Source: Halichondria panicea (taxonomy: Eukaryota > Porifera > Demospongiae > Suberitida > Halichondriidae). Taken from it: a stretch of DNA of 64,000 nt. The notes under the pieces were generated by a model. That model was given only the letters and a program-made list of their open reading frames with translations, searched no databases and was not told the DNA's origin. The translations under genes and the position numbers were made by a program. The DNA is taken from contig NC_087382.1 in the NCBI RefSeq assembly GCF_963675165.1, forward strand, positions 682,001 through 746,000. The letters are read 5' to 3'. Shown here piece after piece: positions 10,282-52,697 of the stretch (position 1 is its first letter; the number at the start of each line of letters is the position of its first letter).

Positions 10282-13200
10282 ATGTCTGACTATCTCACAA
10301 TAGAAGATCTTAAGAAAGTGTACTTAGTCACATTCGATGCTCAAGTGAAGTGGCGAAACTTCTTGCTTGTTCTTGACGTATCCTCGGATACTATCGACAG
10401 CATAGGTACGAAATGGCGAGATGATCCTGATGACTGCTATCGTGAGGGTTTGAAAGAATGGCTGAAAAATGGGGAGAGCCGCTGGGAAGATGTTGTCAAA
10501 GCATTGTCTAGTCCTATTGTGGGCTTCAGTTACATAGCCAGGACCATCGAGAAAGATCATGTACAGTCTACTGATGTGAAGTCAGAGGGTACGTATGAGT
10601 ACCAATTAATTGAGCTGGAATTCATATTATAATTATAATGTTTGTTAGCAATCTTTCCTATAATTCCATGATCACTGTTAATTCACTGCCTCACCCACTC
10701 ACTTTCCCCACACCCTACAGTTGACCACAATCACCAGAAGATCAATGAATATTTGACCATTTTCCTGGACGAGCCACTCGGTAGTGGTGCATTTGGAGCA
10801 GTCTTCAAAGGTAGCTACAGAGGCGACCCTTGTGCTATCAAACTATTACATCAGGTTGCTATGGAGATGCAGACAAATATTCCCGCCACCAAAAGTGAAA
10901 ATGCTAGCGATGCAATTGATCGTGAGAGTGATTTTCTCAAGTCGTTCCAGCACCCAAACGTTGTTCAGTTTTTGTCGACTGTTAAGCACCCCAAATCAGG
11001 TGGTACAATTCTCGTTGTTGAGCTGATGGATTGCAATCTGAGATCCTATTTCTCCGGCCTTGATGAAGAGCCCCTCTCTAGCAAATGTGAAATTAGCCTC
11101 TCCAAAGACATGGCTTGTGGTCTGGCCTACATTCACAGCAAGCAGATTATCCACCGTGACCTCTGTGGCGATAACGTCTTGCTGAAGCTGACACTGCCAG
11201 TGCCTGTTGCAAAGATTTCCGACTTTGGTATGTCGCGACTATACGATCCCTCCAAGCTCAGCTCCACCCTCACAGCCATTGGTCAGCGTAGAGGGTATCT
11301 ACCTCCCGAGGCATATCGATTGGAAGAAGAGAATTACGATAATAGCCTGGATGTGTTTTCCTTTGGGGTGATTTTGACGCAGATCATTTGCAAGTTAGAG
11401 ACGATCAAATCAGCCAAGGATCGATCATTCCATGTTGCCCAGATCCCTCACACACACAGGTTGAGGAAGCTTATTGACAGCTGTTTGCAAGAAGACATGA
11501 CGAGGAGACCATCTGCCAGGGACATCTGTGAGTCTATTAGATACTGTATAGCGCGGATTTCATGGGTTAGCAATCCTACACAAAAATTAAGTCAACGAAA
11601 ATTGTTCTTTAATTAGAATTATCTGCTATAACGTGCAAAGATTTAAAGGCTTGGCTTCCGGTAAGCAGTCATTCTGCGAACATTGTGCAACGAAATGCTT
11701 TTAGAGGCCATTCCACGAAAATTAATATAAGTGCCTCGAAAATTTTGCGCTATACGGTACTAGGAGTACATTAAGAGGAGTATCCAACTGTAGCAGTTGT
11801 AGTGTAAACCAGGTTACGGTAGGAGCATGTCATACCACGTCACTATCTGACCACATCTTAAGTGGGTGCGTAGGTGTAGTGGTTATTAGATATCAGCACA
11901 CACACACATGTGGTTTGTACCTCCAGCCCACATTCATGGCTAACAGTTTACACAACTACAAGTATTAGTGATGGATTCAGTCCGAGATGTAGAATGGAAT
12001 GTGCGTGGGAGTTGCATACTCCTCTTAATGTGCTCCTGACGGTACCTAGTGCATGATAATTATGTGTTTTACGCTTCAGAAATTATCGATTTTGTTTTTT
12101 ACGTTTAATTCTTACTTTTAGATGTTTCACTGACAAGAGACTCGGACTCAGTGGAGGCAACAAAGAGGGACACTCTACCAGTCGAGAAGGTGCGTACATG
12201 TAGTGTGTGAATGAGATTCCTAATTACAGCCACAAACAACAGTACTGTACCATAGGGTCCTGTTTCATTGTTAAGTATGGTTACATAATTTTTTTAGCGT
12301 AAAGATTAATTTTGTTCTGTAGTACTGTACATAATTGTCTACTGCTACAATTATGATTATTCACGTCTTTTTCCTATAATTAGAAGATTTCCACCAATGT
12401 TCCCCTGTACAGCCACACAAAAAACAGATTGAGCACAAAGATGCTGAGCTGGTCAGGAAAGACGCCATCATTCAACAGCAAAGACAGATTATATTCTCCT
12501 ATGAACGTTCCCCTGTACAGTCACACAAGGAACTGATTGAGCACAAATATGCTGAGCTGGTCAGGAGAGACGCCATCATTCAACAGCAGAGATTGGTGAG
12601 ACGCAATGCACCATTATAATATTGCAGAGCTATAGTAGAAGCTTTGATCTGTTATAATCGTACTGTACATTCTAGTGGACTGGTGGGCGTCGCCTCTTAA
12701 GTTAATTAGAGAAAGTGATTTAGTATGCATACAATTATTGTTACAAGTAACACTCGCTTGTTAGTAGACACTATCCTAATTACACTCATTCATTATTCAG
12801 CGTTCCCCTCCCAGAGAGTTGAGACCTCCACTCACTCTGATATGGAGAAGAGGAAAAGACATGCCAATCAAGATGGGTTGCTGCGTACAGAGTGTTGTTA
12901 TCGGTGACACGGTGTATGTTGGTGGAGGTGATGCAGACAATGAGCGTGACAGGTGTACAGTGATGAAGCTCGAGCAAGATCAATGGACCAAACTACCAGA
13001 GTACACTGCCAGGTACTTCGCTATGACATCACTCGCTAATCGACTAGTGCTGGTGGGAGGACGTGATCCAAGAAACAACAAACAAACCAATCAACTTTCT
13101 ATGTTTGTGTCAGGGGAATGGACTCACCCGTACCCACCAATGAACATTGCTCGCGTATCCTCAACAGCTGTCTCCTTCAACAACCACATCATTGTAGCTG

Positions 13201-13742
13201 GTGGGAATGATGATAAAGGACATATCTCCTCTGTGGAGGTGTTGGACGTGGCATCAAGAAGATGGTACATTGCTCAGTCACTACCTAACCCACGAACAAC
13301 ACTGAAATCAACTCTCATAGGAAACACCCTCTACCTAATGGGAGGGTACGATCACATGTGGTCAACCAAGATAGTGCACCACGTCGACCTCGATGAACTC
13401 ATTGCGAAGGCCCATTCAAACCTGGACACACCCACTCTCTGGCAGACCTTACAGGAAGTACCACTCGAGTTGTCAGCTCCTCTCAGTATTGGGAGGTCAC
13501 TATTAGCCGTTGGTGGACGGGACGACAGAAACGAACCAAGTTCATCGATCCACCTCTACCAGCCTGACACCAGGAGGTGGGTGGAAGTGGAAGACCTGCC
13601 TACTGCACGATACAACTGCACATGCTCAGTACTTCCTAGTGGAGAGGTTATTGTAGCCGGAGGACAGACGAAAACTGATTACATTGAAACTGTACATTTA
13701 TTAAAATATAATGTTATGCTCTGTGTAGTTAGGCCTGGGTGA
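10282..13742 (+). CDS. Gene B: death domain - TKL-type kinase - coiled coil - six Kelch repeats
   Basis: Exons 10282-10588, 10721-11527, 12122-12189, 12413-12595 and 12801-13742 join in phase (1,1,0,0) into 768 aa. Residues about 1-95 form a death domain (LTIEDLKKVYLVTFDAQVKW..., then WLKNGESRWEDVVKALSS). The single kinase exon has GSGAFG, CAIK, HRDLCGDN (Asp codon 11158-11160), DFG and LPPEA, so it should be active. A short linker (RDSDSVEATKRD) and a coiled-coil exon with two copies of EHKxAELVRxDAIIQQQR follow, then Kelch repeats with the GG signatures. A probable noncoding first exon lies around 10094-10195. The C-terminus is altered: the stop used by gene A is lost and about 12 residues (ending CVVRPG) are added. 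The kinase/coil/Kelch part is almost identical to the end of gene C. A death-receptor-like or RIP-like adaptor kinase role is inferred only. Confidence 0.88.
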
Positions 13743-33131: not shown

Positions 33132-34335
33132 AAAAGAAGTAGCAAAGAAGGGAATTGAAATATATCAAAGAAAGCGTTGATCTTGGGCAGTTGGTTTATA
33201 AGTTTAAGCAATGGAATAATCGACGTCTCACCATCTTCCTAATACGTGTCTTGCTGTCATAATTATCATTAGGATCCAACTCACGAATGAACTTGTTAGT
33301 AAGATTATGTTCGATGATAACCTGGCGAAATACTCTTCCGTTTGCTGTGAATTGGCCAACTTTTCATTTCTGCCGAGTGTGTCACGCCTGCCATCTGAGT
33401 TGTACAATTTGTATTTATTTAGTGAATACAATAAGATAAGCACTATAGCAGTCATGTCATTGTAGTGTACTCAGACCAAACATTTACATTAAATCTGAAA
33501 GTTGATAGTAGACATCAGCAGTAGATGCTTGTACATGCTTGCTGCAATTGCTTCAGTTTAAAGTTAATAGATCTACTATAATTATATGCAATGCACATAA
33601 TTCATGTCTCTTTTTGCATGCGCGCCAATCACAGTTATTATAGCTTATTATAGTGATATATTACAAGCATTCATTGAACAACAGTTATAAAGGATTACAG
33701 TCCCTGCATCATTAACTCACTTATGTATCTAATTTGGCACAATGCATCTTGATCTACCATAATAGGTCTAGTAGTGCATTTTTGGGGAGGGGCTGGTATT
33801 TTTGTTGTGGGATATAATTATTATAGCCATGCAGCTAGATCTAGTCAAACCTTTTTTCAGTTCTCTCTATTCATTGTATTGAAGAATCATCTCAGCCTGC
33901 CAATCTGATCTAGATCTTGGAGCAGTCAATCTCATCAATGAACTGTTGTTAGCTTTCAATCATGGGCTATGACAGTGGAAATGTTGTAGAAGGTATATCA
34001 TAATTATACTATATATGTTTCATTCATCATTCATTCGCGATACTTTTTTACTCAATTAGCTGGCCTGAATATTACCTTTTATAATGAGACTAGCTATAAC
34101 ATTTAATTAATACTAAACATTTCTGTAATAAGTCTGAACCTGAATGTAACTTTCACGAAAAAAAAAAGAAGGTTTTATGGCACTTGTGTTTTTAGATCTG
34201 TAGAGTCTGTTGTACCAATATCCTATAGTATAGATATTGGCCACTCTATTTATATAATTACACCGATTCTATTTTCACTGTATGAAGGCACGTACACTGA
34301 TGCTGTGTTGATTACCAACCACTATCAATCTACCC
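33132..34335. other. Upstream region of gene C
   Basis: AT-rich. It contains the second copy of the duplicated segment described for 28913-31070. No clear promoter motif was identified. Confidence 0.35.
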
Positions 34336-37300
34336 ATGCTTCCCACAGCCCTTAGAGACTGTCTCTCTCTGCCCACAATAGAAGCCCCCACATTCTGTGT
34401 ACAAAAACAGGAAGATGTTTCGAGGAAAATGTCACCTCTCTTTGTTCACAAGAAACACAGACATTGTCCAAACTGTGTACACACTGAGACTGAGCGGTAT
34501 AAACATTCTCCTGGTGTTCCTATGGCACTGGTAGTGAGCTTCAAAAGGAGACTACAGATTTTGAAGGTTCTTTTAATGTTGCTAATTATTGCTGGAGATG
34601 TCGAGACTAATCCTGGCCCTGTTCCCAAACTCAAACTCGCAAATTTATACAAAGAATTGTGCGAGTTGACTAATCCAATTTCTTTTGGTAAAGAACTTCA
34701 TATTCCTCAGCTGGAATTAGACAGAATTCAAGATGATGATCCCAACGGTATATATAGGTGTACACATTTTGAATAGTTAGACTAGTACTTAGTAAAAACT
34801 AACTTTTCACAGATATAAACAAACAGAAAATGGCTCTATGTCAATATATTGTCAAGGAGCTACATGGAATTGACTGGGACAAAATTGCCGATGCTCTCAA
34901 AAGCATTTCAATGGAATATTTGGCAGTGAAAATCAGACAAAGTTATTGTCAACAAGGTATGCATCCTGTGCTTATAATTATATTAATATTGTAATCATTG
35001 TCAATTGGTTCAGATTGTTCCTCTTCTGATTCTTCTACCGAGTATCTCTCAGCAGAGGAAGAACTCACACAAACTGCACCATTGTGTAAGTCCATTAGTG
35101 TACATTGCAGAAGAAGTAGTACATGCCATCACCCTTCATTCACTGCTTGTACTATGTTTTTAATATAACAGCTAGCCAGTTGACACCAGACCGTCAAGTC
35201 CAACTACCTACAGTGCAAGATGGTGAAAAAGCGCCACATTCTCGAACTAGCAGAGTTAGGGGTGAACCAAAGAAGCAGCAGAAACAAGAGACTTCTGATG
35301 CTTCAGTATCAGCCACAATGGGTCCTCCTAGGCCTAGCACTAAAGGTGAGAATAGTGAACCAAGACTAAATTGGGCCAGGCATGCATGGCTTCATCAGTC
35401 CTGCATTCTGATTGTTAAATATCTTTTGTTCATCAAAGGCTACCAATTTCTATAAATATGTCACTAAGTTAATTGCTGCTCGTTGGTATTTGGTTTAATT
35501 GGAAAGGCACACTGTATAGCGGGTATTTTTCTGGGGGCAAAACATTCGTGGAGCAATATTTATTCACTTTTTGGATAATATTTTCGTGATTGCTGCTTGC
35601 ACTGCAGGTAAAATTAAGTAAGGTCGCTTCATTCGTGGGTAAATTATTCGTGGTAAGAGCTTCAACCACAAAAACCACAAAAATTTTGCCCCACGAAAAT
35701 TACCCGCTATACGGTAGCTAGTATAGGGTGTGTAGCCTCGATTTAAGGTTGCAGTCCTAATTCACAGGCCTTGGATTGAAGAAAGAAGGCCTGCTATACA
35801 TGCAGTCCCTTCCATGTGATATTATTTTTCTTACACGGTCACGTAGCCTCAATTAAGGTATGATTCGGTGAGGGGGTCATTGTGATATAAAACACAGAAT
35901 TATAGCATGATAATCCTTGTATTTTATTCAATATACAGGCAACTCGCCCTCGGGGCTTCGCCCTCGTGCTTGTGCTAAAACAAGTACGTGCTATACTCCT
36001 AGTGCATATGATAAAATTAGTAGTCTGGGTCCACGTGGTGGTCTATATGTAGTGTGCTGCTTTTAGTGAGCTCGTGCCCATCAGTTAAGAGCAGTACGAT
36101 GGATTATGGGGACTGGAGAGAAAAGGCTCCATTTCGAGCATGAACCAATGCCACCACAGAAACAAAGATTTGTGTCTATAATTTTCCATGACAATGATGA
36201 AATGGGGTTATTGATTCTACATTGCTTGCCTTAATTGAGTGCGACACTCCTAGAGGATAGATACCAGAGATCTATGCTTCTAGTGTATATCTGAAACTTC
36301 CCAGCACTGATCCTAACCTTGTAGTGTCAATCAAAGGGTAGCAACTGGGCCTGTTCTTTCATGAGAGTGAAGAGTTCTTGCTTCGCAAAAGACGGAGTAT
36401 ACTATACTCCACTCCTAATAGCTAAAAGCTAGCTATAGGTATAAAATATGACACGGATTTAGTTGTGATTATGGTAACTTTTACTGAAATTGTTTTTACG
36501 TACACCTTTAGTGTTTGTTTGCTCAGGAATTCGTTTGTTTGAGGGAATACCTGAGACGAATTCCAACCATGACAATACCAGGCCTAGTTGTCGACCTAGA
36601 TATAGAGACAAATCGGCCTGGTAACGAGGCTATAGGTATAATTACAGCTCATCCTTTCACAAGGCTAGTGTCAGCTTTCAGTCTGTTCAAATGATGAGCC
36701 ACCCACACTGTGCGTTTTGTACTATAGAAACCTTCAATCGAACTGTAATACGAATACAACTGAGTTGCTAGATCTACCACTAAAATTAATTACTTGTTCT
36801 ATCAACTAGAGAAAGGCATCTATATTCAGACACAATGCATGTTCAGACACTCATTCTAAGGAAACAGGTAGTGATAAAAAATTATCTTTTGCACCATCTG
36901 ATCAAGCATGTGTACGTGTTACTATGAATGTATGCAAAAACGAATTGATAAATATCAACTACTATTAAAGTCTTCAAGAGCTGAAAATGTGCTAGTGTCT
37001 GATAAACGGTAAGAACAGACAAAAAAATCGATCATCAGACACAACCTACCGTTTCTTCTGTAGAGGGATATGCTGAGAGTCACATAGTAATTATGTAAGG
37101 ACAATAACAAACCCCCAAAGTTGGAGTTGCAAAACGCTTGTATGTCTGAGTCACTCGCGTATCAATGATGATCAGACAGAAAATGAGGTCAAAGGTTATT
37201 GGCATCCCATGCAACTGGGGTCAAAGGTCAACTGTTTTAGTGGGCGTGTACGTGGATGCCAATGATATTTGACCTTTGACCCCATTTGCTGTCTGATCAT

Positions 37301-40300: not shown

Positions 40301-43300
40301 AGCTATAAATTGAGAACATGACACGGAGCTACATTACTGTAACTTTTACGGGAGTAAAATGCCTCTACGTCAGTACACCTTTAGTATTACAGAAAAAAAG
40401 CAGGAAACAAAATGTGAAGAATCTCTGCTTTAGTTTCCGGTTCCTGCCACGCCCAGATACAATCAATACCAGGCCGTATTTTTCAACTTCGTTCTATTAA
40501 AAAAAAATCGGCCTGGGACCGAGGCTAGTGACTCAGCAGAAATAATTGCTGCATGGACATACAAGCGTTTTGCAACTCCAACTTTGGGGGTTTTATTGTT
40601 TAGTTATTGTCCTTACATAATTACTATGTGACTCTCAGCATATCCCCCTACAGAAGAAACGGTAGGTTGTGTCTGATGATCGATTTTTTTGTCTGTTCTT
40701 ACCGTTTATCAGACACTATAGCACATTTTCAGCTATTGAAGACTTAGTAGTTGATATTAATTTTATCAATTCTTTTTTGCATACATTCATAGTAACACAT
40801 GCTTGATCAGACGGTGCAAAAGAAAAATTTTTATCACTGCTTGTTTCCTTAGAATGAGTGTCTGAACATGCATTGTGTCTGAATATAGATGCCTTACTCT
40901 ACTTCTTTTTCGTTGTAATGGCATTGTTTACCGCGAACATTTATATCCACGAATTTATTATCGCATGCATGCTGCGGAAAGGTTGCTATTCTGCAAAACT
41001 TAAATCCACGAAAACCTGATGCCAGGCCCATCTCTGAGAGGAAGTGGGCGTGGAATTGAGATTAGCTGCGGAGAGGCGGGCTTCTCATCTTCAAGGTTAC
41101 ACAAAGGTTTCTTATTGTTGTGATTGTAAGAAATGCATGCGTACTACCTTAGCGCTCTAGAATTATATGCGAGCATACAATTACAGTACTCTCGCTATTC
41201 CGGCTCTCTGAAGTACGGCCACCTCAATATAATTATACCGCCCATTAATTTGGTTTGGCACAGATTGCTAGCTAGATGTTTACTGCACAACAACACTCGC
41301 TATTCCGTATACTGCATGGCCAGTACTGGCTGCCCTAAACTAGGTTTTCAATGTACGTTTATTACGGCTGGATATGACGTTTGTGTGTGGTTGTGGTTTG
41401 GCAGATAAATTTGTAAATAGAATTAAAGCAGAATGATTTATTATCCTCGAGACAAGAACCGCAAAGTTAGTCATTATATTCGAGGTAAGGTCATTTTTTA
41501 GCTGCGGTTTTTTTATGAAATGCGGCCACCTCGCTATTCTGGCCAAGCTACACTGTCCACTGTTCTCAAGGGTAACCGGATTAACTGTACACGTTTTGGC
41601 CAATTTTAAGGCTCCAAAAACGGTGTGCGATATCTATTTATGTTTTACTTCCTCGATTAATATGCCTTAAATTTTAGTGTCACGATATATTTATCCCTAG
41701 TGACTTTTCAAAGACTTGTGAAAAGACACCATCTAACTGATGTTCAACTCAACCGTGAAATAGGGCGAGATGATATTCCCCTCTTGGCTATTTATTTTGA
41801 CAAGATTGAATTATATCCCAAACTAATGAACCTCAATCCAGCTGAAGAACAGGACGTGATAAACACTTTGCATGCAAGTAGCCAAGTTGCGATGATCAAG
41901 TGCTTATCTCTGTGGAAAGGACACGATCCTTTCAAAGCAACATACGTAGCTCTACTGGAAATGTTACTCAGGCTGGAGAAAGGAGAGATAGCCAATAACA
42001 TCTGTCTGTACTTGGCTGCAAAAAATGGTAAGGCTAGCTCTTGATAGGTATATGCATGCTATTAATTGCTAGACATAATTTTGTGCACAGAAAGCAGTGG
42101 AGCGTTAAATCGAGAATCAATATCATCAGACCTTAGTGATTCAAGTGAATCGTTTACATCTATAGCTAGTGATTATGCAACTGATTCAGTTTCGTCATTG
42201 GGATCACAGCAAGTGCCTCGCTTGCAATTTGAGTGTGGGTGTGGGCAATGCACTGTGTATGGTTTCATCACTGGAGAGACCTGCCCCAATCCCAAAGCTT
42301 TTCCATTTCCCAAGTTGGAAATCTACGGAATTCCTTCTGACGATATCGACTATATTGAAATCAAATTGCATCAGCAATCGACAAAACTGCACAGAAGTTT
42401 TTGCGAGTTAGTATTGGACACATTTAATGAAATGCTAGAGAGGTCTGTAGACGTTCAGAAATTAATTGTGTATTTAAAGATGCTTTTAAAGCCTAAGTGG
42501 TATTTCCCATTGACCAGCTCACAAGTTTTAGATTGCTTGGATGATCTCGAGAGTTTTGATGATATTGGAGTCTATTTGACAAAACAGCAATACTGTTCAT
42601 GGTTCGATTATGAATTAATTGAACATCTCCGAAATAAATATCTGTTCACTAGTAGTGATTCAGTTTTGGACGACTACAAAGCTAAATTTAAAGTATATGT
42701 CAGTCAGCGTTGCTTTATATATCTAAATGACGAGGGTCCTTGGCCAAAACACCAAGTAAAAGTGAAGTTCAAATTAGATTTCCAATATGAACAGCTATCA
42801 CACAACGTGATCAAGCATCTCAAGTGTGTGTTTGCAGATATTCTTGGCTCACCAAACTATCATCTATGTTTCAAACAAGCGAGAGAAGGCTGTACTGAGC
42901 TTGTATTCGGAGCACCTCCTTACTTTGGGGAAATCCGCCAGCTGTCAAAGTATCAGAAGTCTCAGCTTAAAGCTCATGGCTTCCTCAAAGTTATTATAAT
43001 GGAGCAAGATTTCCTCGAAGTTGACCCAGAAAAAGTTAAACTGAAAGATACAAGTGAGAGAAAATAATTATTTGCTGCTCTATTAATAATTATATGTCAT
43101 GTGCAGATTCTGTGTCTAGTCTCGATAACAGTGAGCTGGGTGAGATCAGCAGTACATGCAGTGAAGGGGATAATGAGACAAGTGATGGAGAAGAGGCAGA
43201 CATTGATACAACAGACCTTGAATACACCACAGGCGAGTAAATAATTTGTTGTGGATTGTTAATAACTATTTTTGTAGGTCCTGGATCTACAGTGGAAGTA

Positions 43301-46300
43301 ACCTACGATCTAATTCTCACCAATGTTTGTGAAAGTGAACTTGAACTACAAGAGGAAATGGACCTAGATGTGTCTCCGTGCTCGCTCTGGAAAGCTCTTC
43401 ACAGTGGGCAGCAGTGTATGGCATTAAAATACAATGGCGAAGGTGATGTACTGAACTTCAGCAAGTACATTGAAGATATGCAACAAAATAAGCGCAATGT
43501 GATGCCATCGAAATGTGTCCATTTTGATGCTAAACTCTCTTCCCACCCCGTTATCCTATTTGAAGTTCAGCAGCCATTTAATGATTATTGCTTTTCCTCT
43601 GAAGTCTTATCTGAAATGCAACAACTTTCATTGTTATTGAATGCTGCTATTAGTGTTCTTGGGTTCTCGTCGAGTATTACGCTTCAAATGACTACAGAAT
43701 CTCTCTTTGTACACACAACTAGTACAGATGACATAACTAGTACAGATGACACAAAAGCAATGTTTTTACCTATGTATGAGCATTCTTACTTCCATCAATT
43801 GGTACCCAAGACCCAACCTGAGTTACCTAGCCTAAATTGGCTAAAAGATACTCTTCTTTTGATGGTCCATCGTAAACAGTGCAACAGCAACTCCAAACTA
43901 TCGGAAAACCACATTCTCTTCAACATTTTCAAGCACAGGTGGTTCCCAGACGATAAACCAGGCTACTCAAGTACAGCAGATGTTGCCAAAGAACTGCAAC
44001 ACATACTAGGTAAGTAGACGATACAGGATAAGACGGTCAACTTGCTCTGTTGGACAAGTGAATGTGATGTTCAGTGTTATAGTTACTGGTCTGTAGCCAT
44101 ATCTACGTTTGTTTGTTGAGCTATATCAATATACTACTATGTCTGCATTATATTATTGCACTTGACTATATTATTGTTAAAGTGTGCAACATAATTATAA
44201 GCTAACCTGCATGTGCTGATCTGGCTGCTAGTTCTGGCTCTTCTGTTCTGTATTTTTGTACGTATATACATTCTAGGCAAGCGCCCATGGCAAGTGCATC
44301 TTTGTGTATTTATTGCCTCCAAACAGGGTAACGCTCACATGATTGGCATTTACCCAGCATGCGTCTGTCACATTTTGTTTACATTACATGGTTACTATTT
44401 GTTTTAGAGCTGGAGAAAACCAGATTGGAAATGATTGATACTCTAGCGGACTCTGAATATTTAGAGGTACCACATTTGCACATGCTTCTCATTGGACACA
44501 CTGGAGTGGGAAAGACGTCTATTAGAAAGCATCTTCAGAACATTCCCTTTAATGATGAGGAGAAAAGCACGATCATAATGGAGCAGGAACTCTTATATCA
44601 AGAAACATTTGAAAGTACAGTGGACTCCAAGAAAAGCACTGTGGTGTTTGAAAAGTACAACAGCGTTTATAAGAGCAACCCAGATAATATTTATCTCACT
44701 CTCTGGGACATAGGAGGTCAACCAATGTTTCAAGATCTTCTTCCTTGCTTCGCTAAAATTAGATCCATTTATGGCATCATTGTTCGACTATGTGACCTGT
44801 TGGATAATTCGAACGCTTCCATTAGACCTACCTGCCCAATTGAAATAGAGAGAGAGGCGCCTTACACATCTACTGATTACCTGTATCGATGCATTTCCTT
44901 TATAGAATCTACTTTGCTTGATCTGCATCTCAACAACCTTCCAGATATGTTGAACAAAAGAGTATTTGAAGTAGCTAGTGGAACAGCTTTCCCCAAAATA
45001 GCCTTTATCGGCACTTTCAAAGACCAAATTAATATAGAAGACAAGCAAGACCTGGAGCAAATATGTTTTCGGTTAAAAAATAATCTGAACTCTCTAGGAA
45101 CAGACTTTCTTGAAAATATAATTTTCCCTTCAACTTCTCCAACCAACTCTTTTATGTTTGAGATAGACAACACACGATCAGGAGCGAAGTATGAAGATCT
45201 TGGAATGAAAGCTTTGCGAGAGCAAATAGTTTTTTGCACAAAAAGTGCCAAAGCAAAAATACCTAACAAATGGATTGCTTTCAAGATTGATCTAGAACGA
45301 GAATCACGCTTACAACAGCCTTGCACAGGAATTGTGACATTTGAAAAGGCTAGTGAAATAGCTAAACAGCACAAAACAGACCTTAAAGCAGCTCTCTGCT
45401 ATTTTCATGAACTTGGTATCTTCATATGGTATCATGACAAGAAACATCTCCAAGAATATGTTTTTGTTGAGCCTAAGAACCTACTTTCCATTCTTGGAAC
45501 TATTCTTGACCCCCAAGTGTATACTGATCTCCCTAAACAATGGAAGCAACTTCAGACACAGGGTATTCTTAATGTTCAAGTAGTTGAACAACTTCTAGCG
45601 GATAGTAAGACTGGTCTCCCACTATCATGGATTCTTAGCTTCTTTCAAGAGCACCATTTAGCAATGCCTTTATTGGAAGGCTACTTTATTCCGTCTATGC
45701 TCCAAGTGCTTCCCATTTGTCCTAATCATCAGCATGTATTTGATGCGAACCTTTCAGCCTGTTCTGTATTACCAGCCAATTTAAAAGTGGCACCTCTCTT
45801 TTTGGCTCCAAGATCTAAGTTTGTACCACCAGGTTTTTTCCCAAGACTAATGACCGTACTTTCTGGAATCAAAGAAGGCAATATATTATGGAAACTGTCA
45901 CCTGATGTTATAAATTGTAAAAACACGGTGTCATTTGATATCAATAACCAGTTTCGGCTTGTATTCACTGAGTTTATTGACTGTGTTCGAGCTCACTTCG
46001 ATGGACTGAGTAACGACAATATTCCCCAGCGTGATGTATGTCTTCAAATTGTATTCACTCTTAATGTGCAGCTGCAAAGAGTTATCAATACTAAGTTGAT
46101 ACGCTTAACATTTGTGTGTTCTTACTCTGAACATTCATCTAGCATCCACTTTCTCAAATATTTGCCATTTGCAACGGATGATCTTGTATCATGTGGTGAA
46201 CATCCCGGCAAAACAATGGAGCTCACTGCTGCCCACAAAATATGGTTGAGTGATGAACATCATCCAAAGATAGCTACTCTAAAAGGTAAATTATAATGGT

Positions 46301-49300
46301 GTTACTATATAATTATGCAGCCAATAATAATTTCTTGTTGCAGATGCTGAGGCTAGATTTGAGGCTGCGATGAAAGGAAAGAAGTTTGGTCTGCGATTCA
46401 CAACAATTCTTTTTACTGGACTGCCAGGATCAGATGTCCATACCTGCAAGCGTTTGATTATGGATAAGAACTTTACTCCTTTTGAATCACCACACTCATT
46501 GGATCACAGCTTTGAATTTAGTTACTATACCGTCAGTGATGAAAAGATTAAACCTTTACACGATGATGATTCGGATATGGTGTTTGCTTGTAATGCAGCT
46601 GTACAGACACCAAAGGGAGCTAAAAATGACAAGTCAGATGAACATTCCATCCAACAATCCGAAGAAGCATCAATCGATTGCCAAACCGAGCCAGATGAAC
46701 ATTTTCCACAGCAAAGACCCAAAGAGGCATCAAGTAAAAACTCTGCAAGTGATCGAAGTAAGCAAGAAAGTTCTGCTCAATCTGTTGGTAAAGAAGTTGA
46801 AGTACCAAGTTCAATACCTGCTGGAAACTCCTCACAGCATCTCACTTCTAATCAGATTCTAATCTATGAGCCAATACCTAAAGAGAGTCTATTAAAATGT
46901 GTCTCTCCTGAGAATATTTTACAACTAATGGTAAATCGCGATCGATTGCTTACAAAAGATTTTGATAATTTGAACATTATTAATTGCGTATGCTGCTCTG
47001 ATGTTTGGTTGTTGAATGTACTACCAATTTTCCTTAAAGGCATCGCCATAGGCATAAACTGTATGAGTTCGAGCCAAGATCTCGAAGGAAAAATAATCCT
47101 TCAGAAAATTTTAGTTCCCGAAACTGAAATTGAAGCAGATGTATCTTTTACTAATAAGCAACTAATAAAAGACATCAGTATGCTAGCAACAAAACTGATG
47201 GTCATTGAAACACATGCAGAAGTTGAGTCGATTGAGAAAAATAGTGAAATTCTCTTTAGGGATAATGAGCAAGCCAAATTAATTGCTGATAAAAATGGAA
47301 AACAAGAAGTATTTGAAGTAGGCAAATCATTGAGGGAGATAGAAAACATTGAACGACAGCTAGTATCATCGTTGGATTTGAGTGAACTGAAGCAAGTCTC
47401 TTTATTCTGGCACATGCTTGGTCACGCTATCAAGAAAGTTATGCAACAATACAATCGGAACTTTATTAGCAAGCAAGAAGTATTGACTATTGCTGCTGAA
47501 TTCAGAATGTCAGAAACTGATCTTGAAATTGCCTTACTTAGCCTGCACATAACTGGTGTGATTCTTTACTTTGGCAATGTTCTTCCAAATGTGATATTTA
47601 AGGATTCGACCGTATTGATCCAATTGATTGCAAAGATAAACCTTTTTGACCTACAACATAATCGAGGAGCTATTATTCCCTTCTCTGCATTTGAAGTTTG
47701 TGAAGTAATGTATGCTGAAGGATTGTTCACATGTAAAGAAGCAATATCCCTCTTCAAAGATTTACATCTGTTAATTGAAATGAAAAATTCGTTATTCTTG
47801 ATGCCATGCTTACTGAGGGAAGAAGTCAGTGTTGAAACTTTCAGCTTTGTTTCCGGTTTGAAAGATACCAAAGTTGCTCCACTTGTGATCCAGTGTTTAT
47901 TAGCCCATGGTTGTTTTGAGTACATCATGTGCTACTTGTGCTCACAGTACAATGGTCACCCATGGCCATGGAAAATTGATGTTCGTCGAGATTTATTCAA
48001 AAGTTTTGTGCAGTTCATTCTACCCGGAGTCAATGCTCTCATAAATGTGTATAGAAAGGAAGATGCTGAACTAACTGTTTATATCAATTCAAATTCGATG
48101 CAAGATTATCAGTTTCTACCATTTATCAGAACAGCAATTGTTACTGGTTTAAACAAAGCCGCAGAAGCGTTTCACATTACTGGTCAAGCTCTTCCTGTTG
48201 TGGGGTTTCACTGCACATGTGGTCAGGTTGACAACACACACATGATCGTTCCTAGCACAGAGGGTCACTGGAGATGTTCTGCTACAAATGAAAAGCTTGC
48301 ACTTTTTTCTACTCAAGACATCTGGTTTACCAAGATACATGATAGTAAGTATAAATTATTAAAACTTGATCACTATTTTGGGTTGTATAATTACATAGGT
48401 GCTGACGCAGTTACCGTTCACAACGTGTTTGCTGAACTCATTCCATGGTCTAGTTCGTGGTACAAAGTGGGAATGCTCTTCAACTTGGAGAGTGATGCGC
48501 TGGAAACCATAACAGTACAGTGCCGCCAAGACACGGATGCAGCACTAATGGAGGTGATAAGAAAATGGTTCCACACTCATCACAACCCAAGCTGGGAGGA
48601 GGTTCAACAAGTCATTTCGAATCTGAAACAATCAGGTATAATTTTAACTTTATGCAGAGGCTCTAAAAGTACAGTATAATTATAGGGCCGTTCATACTAG
48701 ATCATGTTTCTCATTTCTACTTCATACAACTATAATCACTATTTTCTTTTATCCTCAGATGACTCCCTGATTGAACGGTATTCCATGACTGAAGATGTCT
48801 TTAAAGAGTGTCTCCCTAACCTCACACTCTTTGTTAGCATATCCACACTCCTTCCATACTTGCTCAAATATCGTCTGGTACATCGGGCTGACGTCGATTC
48901 TGTACAATCGCCGAATCTTGATAATTCAACTAAAATATCTAATCTTCTCAATCTAACAAAAAGAAATGGAGGTAAAAATGGTTTTGCCCTACTCTACGAT
49001 TGCTTGTTTAAGACCAGTGAGGAGCATCGAGGACATGATAAAATTGTTCAAGAACTTGAGAGATATGCACTTTCCTCCTCAACCATGAATCCCATTGCAA
49101 TAGACCCATCAATCTTGGAGCCCCCTGATGCTGACTATGCTGTAGAGTCAGTGGATGCCCTCATCAGGGAAGTCTCTGACCACATTGGACGAGACTGGAT
49201 GGTCCTAGCCAGAAGTCTTGGTTTTACGGAAATTGATATTCAATTGATTGATATTCAATCAATTGAATATGCCGATGAACGAGACCTCAAAGAGCAGATT

Positions 49301-52300
49301 TATCGGTTTTTCAACGAGTGGAAGAGAAGAGATGGGCAAGATGCTACTCGAGATAAACTTGTTACTGTCTTGTATGAGAGTGGATTAAATGAAGTCGTCC
49401 TGAAGACAACAGATGCTCAAAAAAGTAGGCAACAACATTCTGTGTACTTATAATGTTTGTTAGCAATCTTTCCTATAATTCCATGATGACTGTTAATTCA
49501 CTGCCTCACCCACTCACTCTCCCCACACCCTTACAGTTGACCAAAATCACCAGAAGATCAATGATGATTTGACCATTTTCCTAGACGAGCCACTCGGTAG
49601 TGGTGCATTTGGAGCAGTCTTCAAAGGCAGCTACAGAGGCGATCCTTGTGCTATCAAACTATTACATCAGGTTGCTATGGAGATGCAGACAAACATTCCC
49701 GCCACCAAAAGTGAAGATGCTAGCAATGCAATTGATCGTGAGAGTGATTTTCTCAAGTCGTTCCAGCACCCAAACGTTGTTCAGTTTTTGTCGACTGCTA
49801 AGCACCCCAAATCAGGTGGTACAATCCTCGTTGTTGAGCTGATGGATTGCAATCTGAGATCCTATTTCTCCGGCCTTGATGAAGAGCCCCTCTCTAGCGA
49901 ATGTGAAATTAGCCTCTCCAAAGACATGGCTTGTGGTCTGGCCTACATTCACAGCAAGCTGATTATCCACCGTGACCTCTGTGGCGATAACGTCTTGCTG
50001 AAGCTGACACTGCCAGTGCCTGTTGCAAAGATTTCTGACTTTGGTATGTCGCAACTATACGATCCCTCCAAGCTCAGCTCCACCCTCACAGCCATTGGTC
50101 AGCGTAGAGGGTATCTACCTCCCGAGGCCTATCGATTGGAAGAGGAGAATTACGATAATAGCCTGGATGTGTTTTCCTTTGGGGTGATTTTGACGCAGAT
50201 TGTTTGCAAGTTAGAGACGATCAAATCAGCCAAGGATCGATCATTCCATGTTGCCCAGATCCCTCACACACACAGGTTGAGGAAGCTTATCGACAGCTGT
50301 TTGCAAGAAGACATGACGAGGAGACCATCTGCCAGGGACATCTGTGAGTCTATTAGTACTGTATAGCGCGGATTTCGTGGGTTAGTAATCCTACACAAAA
50401 ATTAAGTCCACGAAAATTGTTCATTATCTGCTATAACGTGCAAGGCTTGGCTTCCGGTAAGCAGTCATTCCGCGAACATTGTGTAACGAAATGCTTTTAG
50501 AGCCCATTCCACGAAAATTTTGCGCTATACGGTACCAAGAGTACATTAAGAGGAGTGTCCAACTGTAGCAGCAGCTGAAGTGTAAACCAGGTTATGGTAG
50601 GAGCATGTCATACCACGTCACTATCAGACCGCATCTTAAGTGGATGCGTAGGTGTAGTGGTTATTAGATATCGGCACACACACACACACATGTGGTTTGT
50701 ACCTCCAGCCCACATTTAATTTTATTCATGGCTAACAGTTTACACAACTACAAGTGTTAGTGTCGTATTCAGTCCTAGATGTAAAATGGAATGCATGTGC
50801 GTGAGAGTTGTATACTCCTCTTAATGTACTCCTGACGGTACCTAGTGCATGATAATAATATTTAGACAGTACTCAGTACATTGTATGTGCGTAGCGCGAG
50901 GGACTGGCAAACTGCCTATCAGATTGCTCAGCGTCATATTAGCCCCCTGTAATTGTAACCACACTTACACTTCAGTGGATTCATTACATTCCATAGTAGC
51001 TAAATCTCATAGCAAAATTTAACCACATTATCTATAATGATATTCATGTTTGGTAGTGTCATATGATCTATACACTTCCGGTGAGACGAGTGACTTATAG
51101 GCAGTTGGCCAGTCGCTCGCGCGTATCGCCGCCAGTCTAACTCCTCTTAATGTACTCCTGACAGTACCTAGTGCATGATAATTATGCTTCTGAAAAATGT
51201 GTCGATTTTCCTTTTAACGTTTAATTCTTACTTTTAGATGTTTCACTGACAAGAGACTCGGACTCAGTGGAGGCAACAAAGAGGGAAACTCTACTAGTCG
51301 AAAAGGTGCGTACATGTAATGTGTGAATGAGATTCCTAGTACTGTACCTGAGGGTGCTGTTTCATTGTAAAAAGCATGTTAAGTTTCGTACGTAATTCTT
51401 TAGCGTAAAGATTAAGTTTGTTCTGTAGTACTGTAATAATTGTCCACTGCTACTGATATTCACGTTTCCTATAGTTTGAAGATTTCCACCAACGTTCCCA
51501 TGTACAGTCACACATGGAACAGATAGAGCACAAAGATGCTGAGCTGGTCAGGAGAGACGCCATCATTCAACAGCAGAGACAGGTGAGAAGAAATGCTAAT
51601 ATATTGCAGGGCTATAGTAGAAGCTTTGATCCGTTATAATCGTACTGTACATTCTAGTGGACTGGTGGGCGTGACCTCTTAAGCTAATTAGAGAAAGTGA
51701 TTTAGTGTGCATACAATTATTGCTACAAGTAACACTCGCTTGTTAGTAGACACTATCCTAATTACACTCGTTCATTATTCAGGGTCCACCTCCCAGAGAG
51801 TTGAGACCTCCACTCACTCTGAAATGGAGAAGAGGGAAAGACATGCCAATCAAGATGAGCTACTCAGTACAGAGTGTTGTTATCGGTGACACGGTGTATG
51901 TTGGTGGAGGCAATGCAGTCAGTGATCGTGACAAGTGTACAGTGATGAAGCTCGAGCAAGATCAATGGACCAAACTACCCGAGTACACTGCCCAGTGGTT
52001 CGCTATGACATCACTCGCTAATCGACTGGTGCTGGTGGGAGGACATGATACAAGAAACAACAAACAAACCAATCAACTTTCTATCTTCGAGTCAGTGGAA
52101 TGGACTCACCCGTACCCACCAATAAACATTGCTCGTCATTCCTCAACAGCTGTTTCCATCAACAACCACATTATTGTAGCTGGTGGGTTTGATGATAAAA
52201 AATATACCTCCTCTGTGGAGGTGTTGGACGTGGCATCAAGAAGATGGTACATTGCTCAGTCACTACCTAACGCACAATCAGGGCTGAAATCAACTCTCAT

Positions 52301-52697
52301 AGGAAACACCCTCTACCTAATGGGAGGGTTGGATCACACTGGGCCAACCAAGAAATTGCACCAAGTTAACCTCAATGAACTCATTGCAAAAGCCCTTTCC
52401 AACCTGGACACACCTACTCTCTGGCAAACCTTACAGGAAGTACCACTCCAGTGGTCAGCTCCTCTCAGTATCGGGAGGTCACTATTAGCCGTTGGTGGAC
52501 GGGACAGCAGAGTCAACCCAAGTTCATCGATCCACCTCTACCAGCCTGACACCAGGAGGTGGGTGAAAGTGGGAGACCTGCCTACTGCACGATACTGCTG
52601 CACATGCTCAGTACTTCCTTGTGGAGAGGTCATTGTAGCCGGAGGAGAGACCGAAACTAGTTACATTCGAACTGTGGAATTCTTGTCAATAAGTTAA
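34336..52697 (+). CDS. Gene C: giant 2A / death / ROC-COR / death-CARD-death / kinase / coiled-coil / Kelch protein
   Basis: Sixteen exons (34336-34747, 34813-34956, 35014-35085, 35172-35345, 41701-42027, 42091-43053, 43107-43232, 43278-44009, 44408-46285, 46344-48344, 48399-48635, 48759-49424, 49537-50343, 51238-51305, 51508-51582, 51783-52697) join without a frame break into about 3,198 aa. Introns 1-13 are phase 1 and the last two phase 0. In order: hydrophobic stretch and 2A motif (residues 74-95); death-like (about 100-185); low-complexity linker; death (about 268-376); region with CGCGQC and conserved FPF; ROC with GHTGVGKTS (about 1013) and DIGGQ (44707-44720) plus COR; a second ROC-like start lacking GK(S/T), acidic repeats, and a second COR; death; CARD-like; death; kinase with GSGAFG, CAIK, HRDLCGDN, DFG; coil; six Kelch repeats. 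A Roco-class signalling scaffold is inferred. The start could also be 34429 or 34522. Confidence 0.85.
34594..34620 (+). other. 2A-like ribosome-skipping motif (GDVETNPGP) in gene C
   Basis: The reading frame of exon 1 carries the canonical 2A signature D-V-E-x-N-P-G-P, directly preceded by a Leu/Ile-rich helix (LQILKVLLMLLIIAG) as in active 2A sequences. Skipping would fall between Gly and the final Pro (codon 34618-34620), releasing a 32-94 residue leader (depending on start) from the rest of the protein. 2A-like sequences at the N-terminus of NLR-type proteins of sea urchin and sponge are known, where the leader can act as a signal sequence. Activity here is predicted, not shown. Confidence 0.85.
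35511..35717. mobile_element. MITE in intron 4 of gene C
   Basis: Left end ACTGTATAGCGGGTATTTTT, right end ...AAAATTACCCGCTATACGGT, about 25 bp of imperfect inverted match. Same family as 28690-28912. Noncoding. Confidence 0.65.
37590..37916 (+). pseudogene. RecQ-like helicase fragment, frameshifted
   Basis: The plus strand reads AATFSSALAYALSCVGKPG and LKDKQLEALICLYAG in one frame, then in another frame FQTLPFLIDVKLDR and VVMVISPLVSLSEA. This is the order of RecQ helicase motifs 0, I and Ia (Q-motif, where the P-loop region is spoiled, then V-SPLVSL). A frame change and loss of the GKS segment show it is broken. Confidence 0.6.
38604..38915 (-). pseudogene. RecQ-like helicase fragment, opposite strand
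   Basis: The minus strand reads LIVSPLVSLIMRPMIDQVRS, then LNNRGVSAAILSSN and SGKYFLLYTARPQR. These correspond to RecQ motif Ia and the segment before motif II. It overlaps in content with the plus-strand fragment at 37.6 kb, so it is a second, inverted copy. It is truncated before the DEAH motif. Confidence 0.6.
39003..39220. mobile_element. 218-bp MITE, TAGTCTGGGGGCC ends, 9-bp target duplication
   Basis: TAGTCTGGGGGCCAGACC at the left and GGTCTGGCCCCCAGACTA at the right, flanked by GCCCCAGGC at 38994-39002 and 39221-39229. Nested inside the composite element of intron 4. Confidence 0.85.
39608..39772. mobile_element. Long hairpin element
   Basis: ATGCCACACCTACTCGGAGG...ATCCTCCGCTACCGTGGTTAC pairs with GTAACCACGGTAGCGGAGGA...CCTCTTAGGTGTGGTAT, giving a hairpin about 165 bp long. 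Noncoding. Confidence 0.65.
40000..40237. mobile_element. Inverted-repeat element
   Basis: ACTGGTCAAACTCCGTGT...AGACTCGTG at 40018-40048 is complementary to CACGAGTCT...ACACGGAGTTTGACCAGT at 40207-40235. Outer TAGACT/GTCTA ends match the TAG...CTA pattern. I could not identify a target duplication. Confidence 0.5.
50888..51130. mobile_element. MITE in gene C, absent from the paralogous gene B intron
   Basis: GCGCGAGGGACTGGCAAACTGCCTAT near the left and ATAGGCAGTTGGCCAGTCGCTCGCGC near the right form inverted ends. The matching intron of gene B (11528-12121) lacks it. A 45-bp stretch (CTCCTCTTAATGTACTCCTG...) stands on both sides in C but once in B, so the flank was duplicated with the insertion. 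Confidence 0.7.

Follow-up and report, generated by a model that had tools for sequence, protein, structure and literature searches.

A 2A-like element under selection in frame with a predicted giant Death/ROC(-COR)/kinase/Kelch protein of the sponge Halichondria panicea

In the 64,000-nucleotide stretch of Halichondria panicea DNA analysed here (the window; C6:682001-746000 of the 131.5 Mb genome), a 2A-like motif lies near the front of a giant reading frame, raising the question of whether translation of this frame yields two products and, if so, which. The interval 34522-34620 translates to MALVVSFKRRLQILKVLLMLLIIAGDVETNPGP, which carries the canonical 2A/StopGo octapeptide DVETNPGP in an L-rich ...AG context. 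The octapeptide conforms to the StopGo/2A core, (D/G/C/N)(V/I)ExNPGP, as defined in the available text of Li et al. 2026 (PMC12846837), and the upstream hexapeptide, LLIIAG, was judged by eye to fit the L-rich, (A/S/C)G-ending class described there, whose motif 6 is active in reticulocyte lysate in vitro. The pattern DVExNPGP has a single match in the window and no match in 100 shuffles of it. Genome-wide, D(V/I)ExNPGP-coding DNA was matched 116 times (coordinates are listed for 109 of these matches and the remaining seven were counted only), as compared with ~0.11 expected from composition and zero in the reversed control; the motif is thus real and no chance match. PADLOC returned no match for the 33-residue leader. 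From its sequence, we infer that the window motif has StopGo activity.

The gene model that begins at the ATG at 34522 has 15 exons encoding 3,165 residues without an internal stop, in agreement with the earlier claim that the frame continues through phase-matched exons. Inclusion of an upstream exon 0 gives 16 exons and 3,234 residues, with a predicted NPG|P junction after residue 100 and predicted products of 100 residues, ending in 2A, and of 3,133 residues, starting with Pro. Among the 15 introns of this model, all predicted, 13 are in phase 1, and 14 are GT-AG and one is GC-AG. The GC-AG intron lies at the exon 7/8 boundary (43232/43278 in the window), and a GC donor is also found in the C10 paralogue. 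Automatic parsing recovered exon 5 (41701) and those after it, with the exon 6 start, exon 7 and the exon 14 end set by hand; exons 1-4, which it missed, were placed from conserved splice sites and paralogues. The automatic 5′ path from the ATG at 34522, which spliced out of the first exon at 12 bases and so bypassed the 2A, was judged wrong.

Table 1. Predicted features of the window gene (positions are those of the window)
Feature	Position	Strand	Evidence or remark
Exon 0, MGYDSGNVVE, probable true start	33962..33992	+	Phase-1 donor; found in 5/5 close copies, window included
Exon 1: remaining first product with hydrophobic segment and 2A; beginning of first death-like domain	34349..34747	+	Acceptor cttcccacag and frame kept in 5/5
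Leader, MALVV...DVETNPGP	34522..34620	+	Within exon 1; translation of interval
Octapeptide DVETNPGP	34597-34620	+	Predicted skipping between G (ends 34617) and P
Exon 2: remainder of first death-like domain	34813..34956	+	Pfam Death 21.1 bits, E 3.4e-4, on joined exons 1-8; just below cut-off 22.6
Exon 3, linker	35014-35085	+	GT-AG, phase 1; matches in paralogues
Exon 4, linker	35172-35345	+	GT-AG, phase 1; matches in paralogues
Exon 5	41701-42027	+	Weak Death match, E 0.058
Exon 6	42091-43053	+	Predicted
Exon 7	43107-43232	+	GC-AG donor
Exon 8, conserved region, no assigned fold	43278..44009	+	dN/dS 0.30 vs C10 paralogue
Exon 9, ROC GTPase and COR-A-like domain	44408..46285	+	Pfam Roc 38.6 bits (cut-off 27); COR-A 34.9 bits, just below cut-off 35.3
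Exon 10	46344-48635	+	Without Pfam match
Exon 11, Death domain	48759-49424	+	Pfam Death E 3.5e-14
Exon 12, protein kinase with HRD and DFG residues	49537..50343	+	Pkinase E 5.9e-37, 127.9 bits
Exon 13, linker	51238-51305	+	Exon model
Exon 14, linker	51475-51582	+	Exon model
Exon 15, Kelch propeller, stop	51783-52697	+	Kelch_1 E 1.2e-27

The ROC, Death, Pkinase and Kelch matches are above their Pfam cut-offs, and a profile of the first death-like domain had the FAS death domain as its top PDB match (E 0.11). Pfam analysis of the joined exons 1-8 (921 residues) gave, at E 0.1 or better, Death plus one unrelated weak match, and no LRR of the LRRK type was found there before the ROC domain. The kinase follows ROC(-COR) as it does in LRRK-type proteins, the two being joined by exon prediction. 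In the predicted model, the downstream part forms a coherent ROC(-COR)-Death-kinase-Kelch gene. A comparison by sequence of ROC-COR with solved structures gave no match at 0.01, and a search of protein collections with the first 1,578 of the 3,165 residues gave 7,796 candidates, none of them at E 0.001.

To assess the conservation of the leader, we searched the genome with a 75-residue exon 1 query. All nine of the strong matches sit on exact 2A motif places; two weak ones, on C13, lack the leader part. In five of the nine copies (the four more distant ones, at C10:4.27-4.42 Mb, were left out), the pooled pN/pS of the leader was 0.23, as compared with 0.51 upstream of it and 0.45 in the next domain. 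Three of the nine leaders are identical, and the copies, being tandem relatives, are statistically dependent. Against the C10 paralogue, dN/dS ranged from 0.19 to 0.47 across the six exons compared (exon 10 in part), indicating purifying selection. These results support the notion that a 2A-like element is under selection in frame with a predicted giant Death/ROC(-COR)/kinase/Kelch protein.

We then considered where this frame starts. MALVV, at 34522, is the sole in-frame exon 1 ATG common to all five close copies. It is the only one at all in exon 1 of both C10 copies, one of which has none upstream of it back to the stop, while further in-frame ATGs in the window and C12 copies differ in position from copy to copy. 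In all five copies, the frame can be followed upstream of MALVV without a stop as far as a good acceptor, and the distances from acceptor to MALVV (173, 173, 155, 182 and 182) are all in the same frame. Exon 0, or a near variant with an in-frame 3-base insertion in both C12 copies, is present in each of the five and joins in frame to the acceptor at 34349. Exon 0, and not 34522, is probably the true start. The exon 0 donor scored above 3 with our own donor matrix in three of the five copies, the window copy scoring below, and pN/pS is higher upstream of the leader than within it; a second form initiated at MALVV is possible for these reasons. With the leader probably not at the N-terminus, the first product would have ~100 residues and its hydrophobic segment near the C-terminus. 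Thus, of the proposal that the frame starts with a hydrophobic helix and the motif, both elements stand and their N-terminal position probably does not; the proposed Pro-starting protein of about 3,100 residues is retained as a prediction, with a partner of ~100 residues in place of a short leader.

We regard it as probable that a working StopGo element in the second coding exon yields these 100- and 3,133-residue proteins. Ribosomes finishing ...AGDVETNPG would release a 100-residue product whose C-terminus consists of a short hydrophobic segment and the 2A tail, and most of them would resume at Pro, yielding a separate cytosolic death-like/ROC(-COR)/Death/kinase/Kelch protein. A first product that is separated while its hydrophobic segment is in the exit tunnel would be expected to resemble a tail-anchored protein. 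As the segment here would still be in the tunnel at release, the first product is possibly membrane-bound; this fate, like the splicing of exon 0, is predicted. The company of Death, ROC and NACHT domains suggests a possible immune role of the gene.

With exon 9 as query, we found 11 Roco places in the same genome at ≥55% identity, the window counted. A same-strand 2A lies within 16 kb upstream in seven of them, where the chance expectation is ~0.007 each. The other four (two on C1, one each on C4 and C28) have no listed 2A within that distance, and a reading of the 6.5-7.4 kb ahead of exon 7 on C4 and C28 turned up none of exons 1-6; the 2A therefore appears dispensable to part of the Roco family. 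The elements from leader/2A to the C-terminal Death domain have the same order in the C10 paralogue, where they span ~9.2 kb. The gap between exons 4 and 5 is 6.3 kb in the window as compared with ~0.2 kb in a C12 copy, and two of the nine leader copies (C10:1224148 and C12:5112012) head partial genes without a ROC match of their own.

The motif is also frequent outside this family. The largest 2A array, on C14, has 41 motifs. A search with its leader found 48 places, and 45 of 47, after omission of one weak C2 match, are on exact motifs (41 of 43 on C14 and 4 of 4 on other contigs, the tandem copies not being independent). Behind the array, NACHT was identified in the copy read (L044; 73.4 bits against a cut-off of 26.7). 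Among the 102 NACHT matches listed, nine lie 1.1-2.3 kb behind a same-strand 2A (seven on C14, one each on C1 and C6) and most have no nearby 2A. By eye, 11 of the 13 loci inspected in detail have a death-like or CARD-like exon downstream, with none in L013 and an ambiguous one in L004. Pfam matched three of seven death-like exons to Death or CARD (E 0.015-0.15, all below the cut-offs) and the other four to nothing; a profile of seven exons of this kind ranked FADD first in PDB (E 0.018). Another family, with the N-terminus MGISVELWRARIG..., gave 29 matches. A 2A follows 26 of these at a distance of 289-414 bases, which is a multiple of three in 25 cases, so that long first products are predicted elsewhere in the genome as well; one copy contains a stop. 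As read from these exons, the 2A is not peculiar to the window gene and is also found before NACHT and death-like exons.

The nearest precedent is provided by the SpNLR2A sequences of sea urchin, N-terminal 2A-like signal sequences on NLRs (Roulston et al. 2016, PMC4981915). By analogy, MALVV could be the start and the leader a signal sequence, with the non-skipped form entering the secretory route and the skipped form remaining cytosolic. SpNLR2A6, the most similar host sequence to have been assayed, offers a precedent, skipping at ~80% in vitro by its authors' qualitative estimate and showing targeting in HeLa and plant cells (PMC4981915), and the window leader, with a best 17-residue hydropathy of 2.18, exceeds SpNLR2A6 (1.88); the shared MALVV codon would suit such a start. 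Yet the hydrophobic segment becomes internal once exon 0 and the in-frame stretch of exon 1 ahead of MALVV are included, and secretion would be odd for a ROC/kinase protein. Moreover, such a switch would need a conserved targeting segment, whereas four Roco paralogues keep DIETNPGP at a hydropathy of 1.58. We thus consider dual targeting unlikely, and the earlier suggestion of a switch between secretory and cytosolic forms, weakened by these observations, is unsupported as stated.

Separation into a 100-residue product and a cytosolic protein, which we prefer, has also to be weighed against the possibility that the ROC-kinase part is a gene distinct from the one with the 2A exon, or that the giant tail results from artefactual joining with a neighbour. 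The kinase exon belongs to a tandem family with at least 134 genome matches (143 of 750 candidates were scored), many of them on C1 (15.49-17.36 Mb), and copies with 96-99% identity to the window kinase lie on its own contig, C6. Kelch copies adjoin kinases within the window at 10672-13742 and 49537-52697, the former being a second kinase-Kelch set. Behind the C10 paralogue, KH domains are found instead of a kinase. Against this, the exons form a single phase-matched chain without a stop, the kinase exon starts 112 bases past the Death exon with an open frame lacking an ATG before the kinase domain, and C28 likewise has ROC and then a kinase ~4 kb on, the window and C28 being the only such cases among the kinase matches listed. 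Two genes, or an artefact, are accordingly improbable to us; the tail of the giant gene suggests a fusion with a neighbour, giving an LRRK-like ROC-kinase-propeller order. This order, with a kinase that has near-identical copies on its own contig, is interesting in its own right. A third possibility, that the leader is a functionless retrotransposon remnant caught in an exon, draws on the presence of 2A in apparent non-LTR retrotransposons here: by eye, five of 36 loci of 3 kb with a 2A (L010, L012, L014, L026 and probably L013) were so classified and 31 were not. It is opposed by conservation of the leader at the protein level and by motif retention in 9/9 and 45/47 copies, and in our own reading the gene leaders have little in common with the elements beyond the 2A. 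We disfavour this explanation as highly improbable.

In L010, L012, L014 and L026, the 2A is directly ahead of a PHD-like finger and an endonuclease-like stretch; in L010, the one scanned, Pfam gave a PHD finger that exceeds the cut-off, along with a weak match to an endonuclease (E 0.07). Odon et al. reportedly described 2A in APE-type non-LTR retrotransposons in 2013. These share with the window gene a 2A in the frame of a host-genome element and differ in being mobile, the window gene being intron-rich. In C10:1193001-1225500 (L037-L039 and L042), similar open frames lie behind both C10 copies in place of the kinase. The KH domains were found in the one set of frames that was scanned, and these frames may be part of the same gene.

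SpNLR2A and the window gene, which may likewise encode an immune receptor, both have a hydrophobic stretch followed by DVETNPGP near the front. In SpNLR2A, however, these are 26 residues at the very N-terminus, followed by an NLR, whereas the window gene has probably 100 residues (33 if MALVV starts), an upstream exon and a ROC(-COR)/kinase/Kelch partner; it has ROC and not NACHT, which a C14 copy has (PMC4981915, available text). With viral StopGo/2A it shares the core octapeptide and the (A/S/C)G-ending, L-rich hexapeptide, but the viral elements lie inside polyproteins and this one near the start of a host frame (PMC12846837, in part). ROC(-COR), then kinase, then propeller is the order of LRRK and Dictyostelium Roco proteins, and the Death domain recalls DAPK1; in contrast to these, the window gene has a 2A leader, a death-like domain before ROC, where no LRR was found, and Death after it (review PMC6320773, as far as its available text goes).

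The earlier statement that 2A leaders occur on NLRs of sea urchin and sponge is correct for sea urchin (PMC4981915), while for sponge no precedent was found in the literature searched. That literature, mostly non-subscription papers, likewise contained no 2A joined to a Roco gene and no 2A in sponges, consistent with the remark that none was known on a Roco/kinase/Kelch protein. The available text of a sponge NLR paper (PMC12909245) does not contain '2A-like', 'NPGP' or 'Roco'; it mentions transmembrane NLRs, which unrecognised 2A leaders might explain. As far as searched, the Roco/kinase/Kelch partner, the longer first product and the scale are new, the known relative being the sea urchin NLR 2A. 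Rao et al. (2025) may already list such animal 2A sequences.

More tentatively, we suggest a host-wide StopGo strategy, in which a large set of death-fold, immune-type receptors (NACHT NLRs and Roco kinases) would each co-produce, at ~1:1, a first protein that is conserved, is ~100-140 residues long and ends in a short membrane segment. If this is true, a single reading frame would supply two partner proteins per receptor. StopGo is described as rare in cellular genes (PMC12846837, available text); more than 100 intact motifs, many of which precede exons of the NACHT, Roco or death-like kind, would turn it into a mechanism in regular use by the host. The same kind of leader would link two receptor classes and offer many natural variants for tests. 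At L001 (C1:10.2 Mb), an open frame with three hydrophobic segments lies ~500 bases before a 2A, and a NACHT match is 1.8 kb behind the 2A; the frame may encode a multi-pass membrane protein that StopGo releases beside an NLR. Elsewhere on the nuclear contig C1, L059 (C1:5280527-5280718) is a 64-residue fragment of mitochondrial cox1 with in-frame TGA codons.
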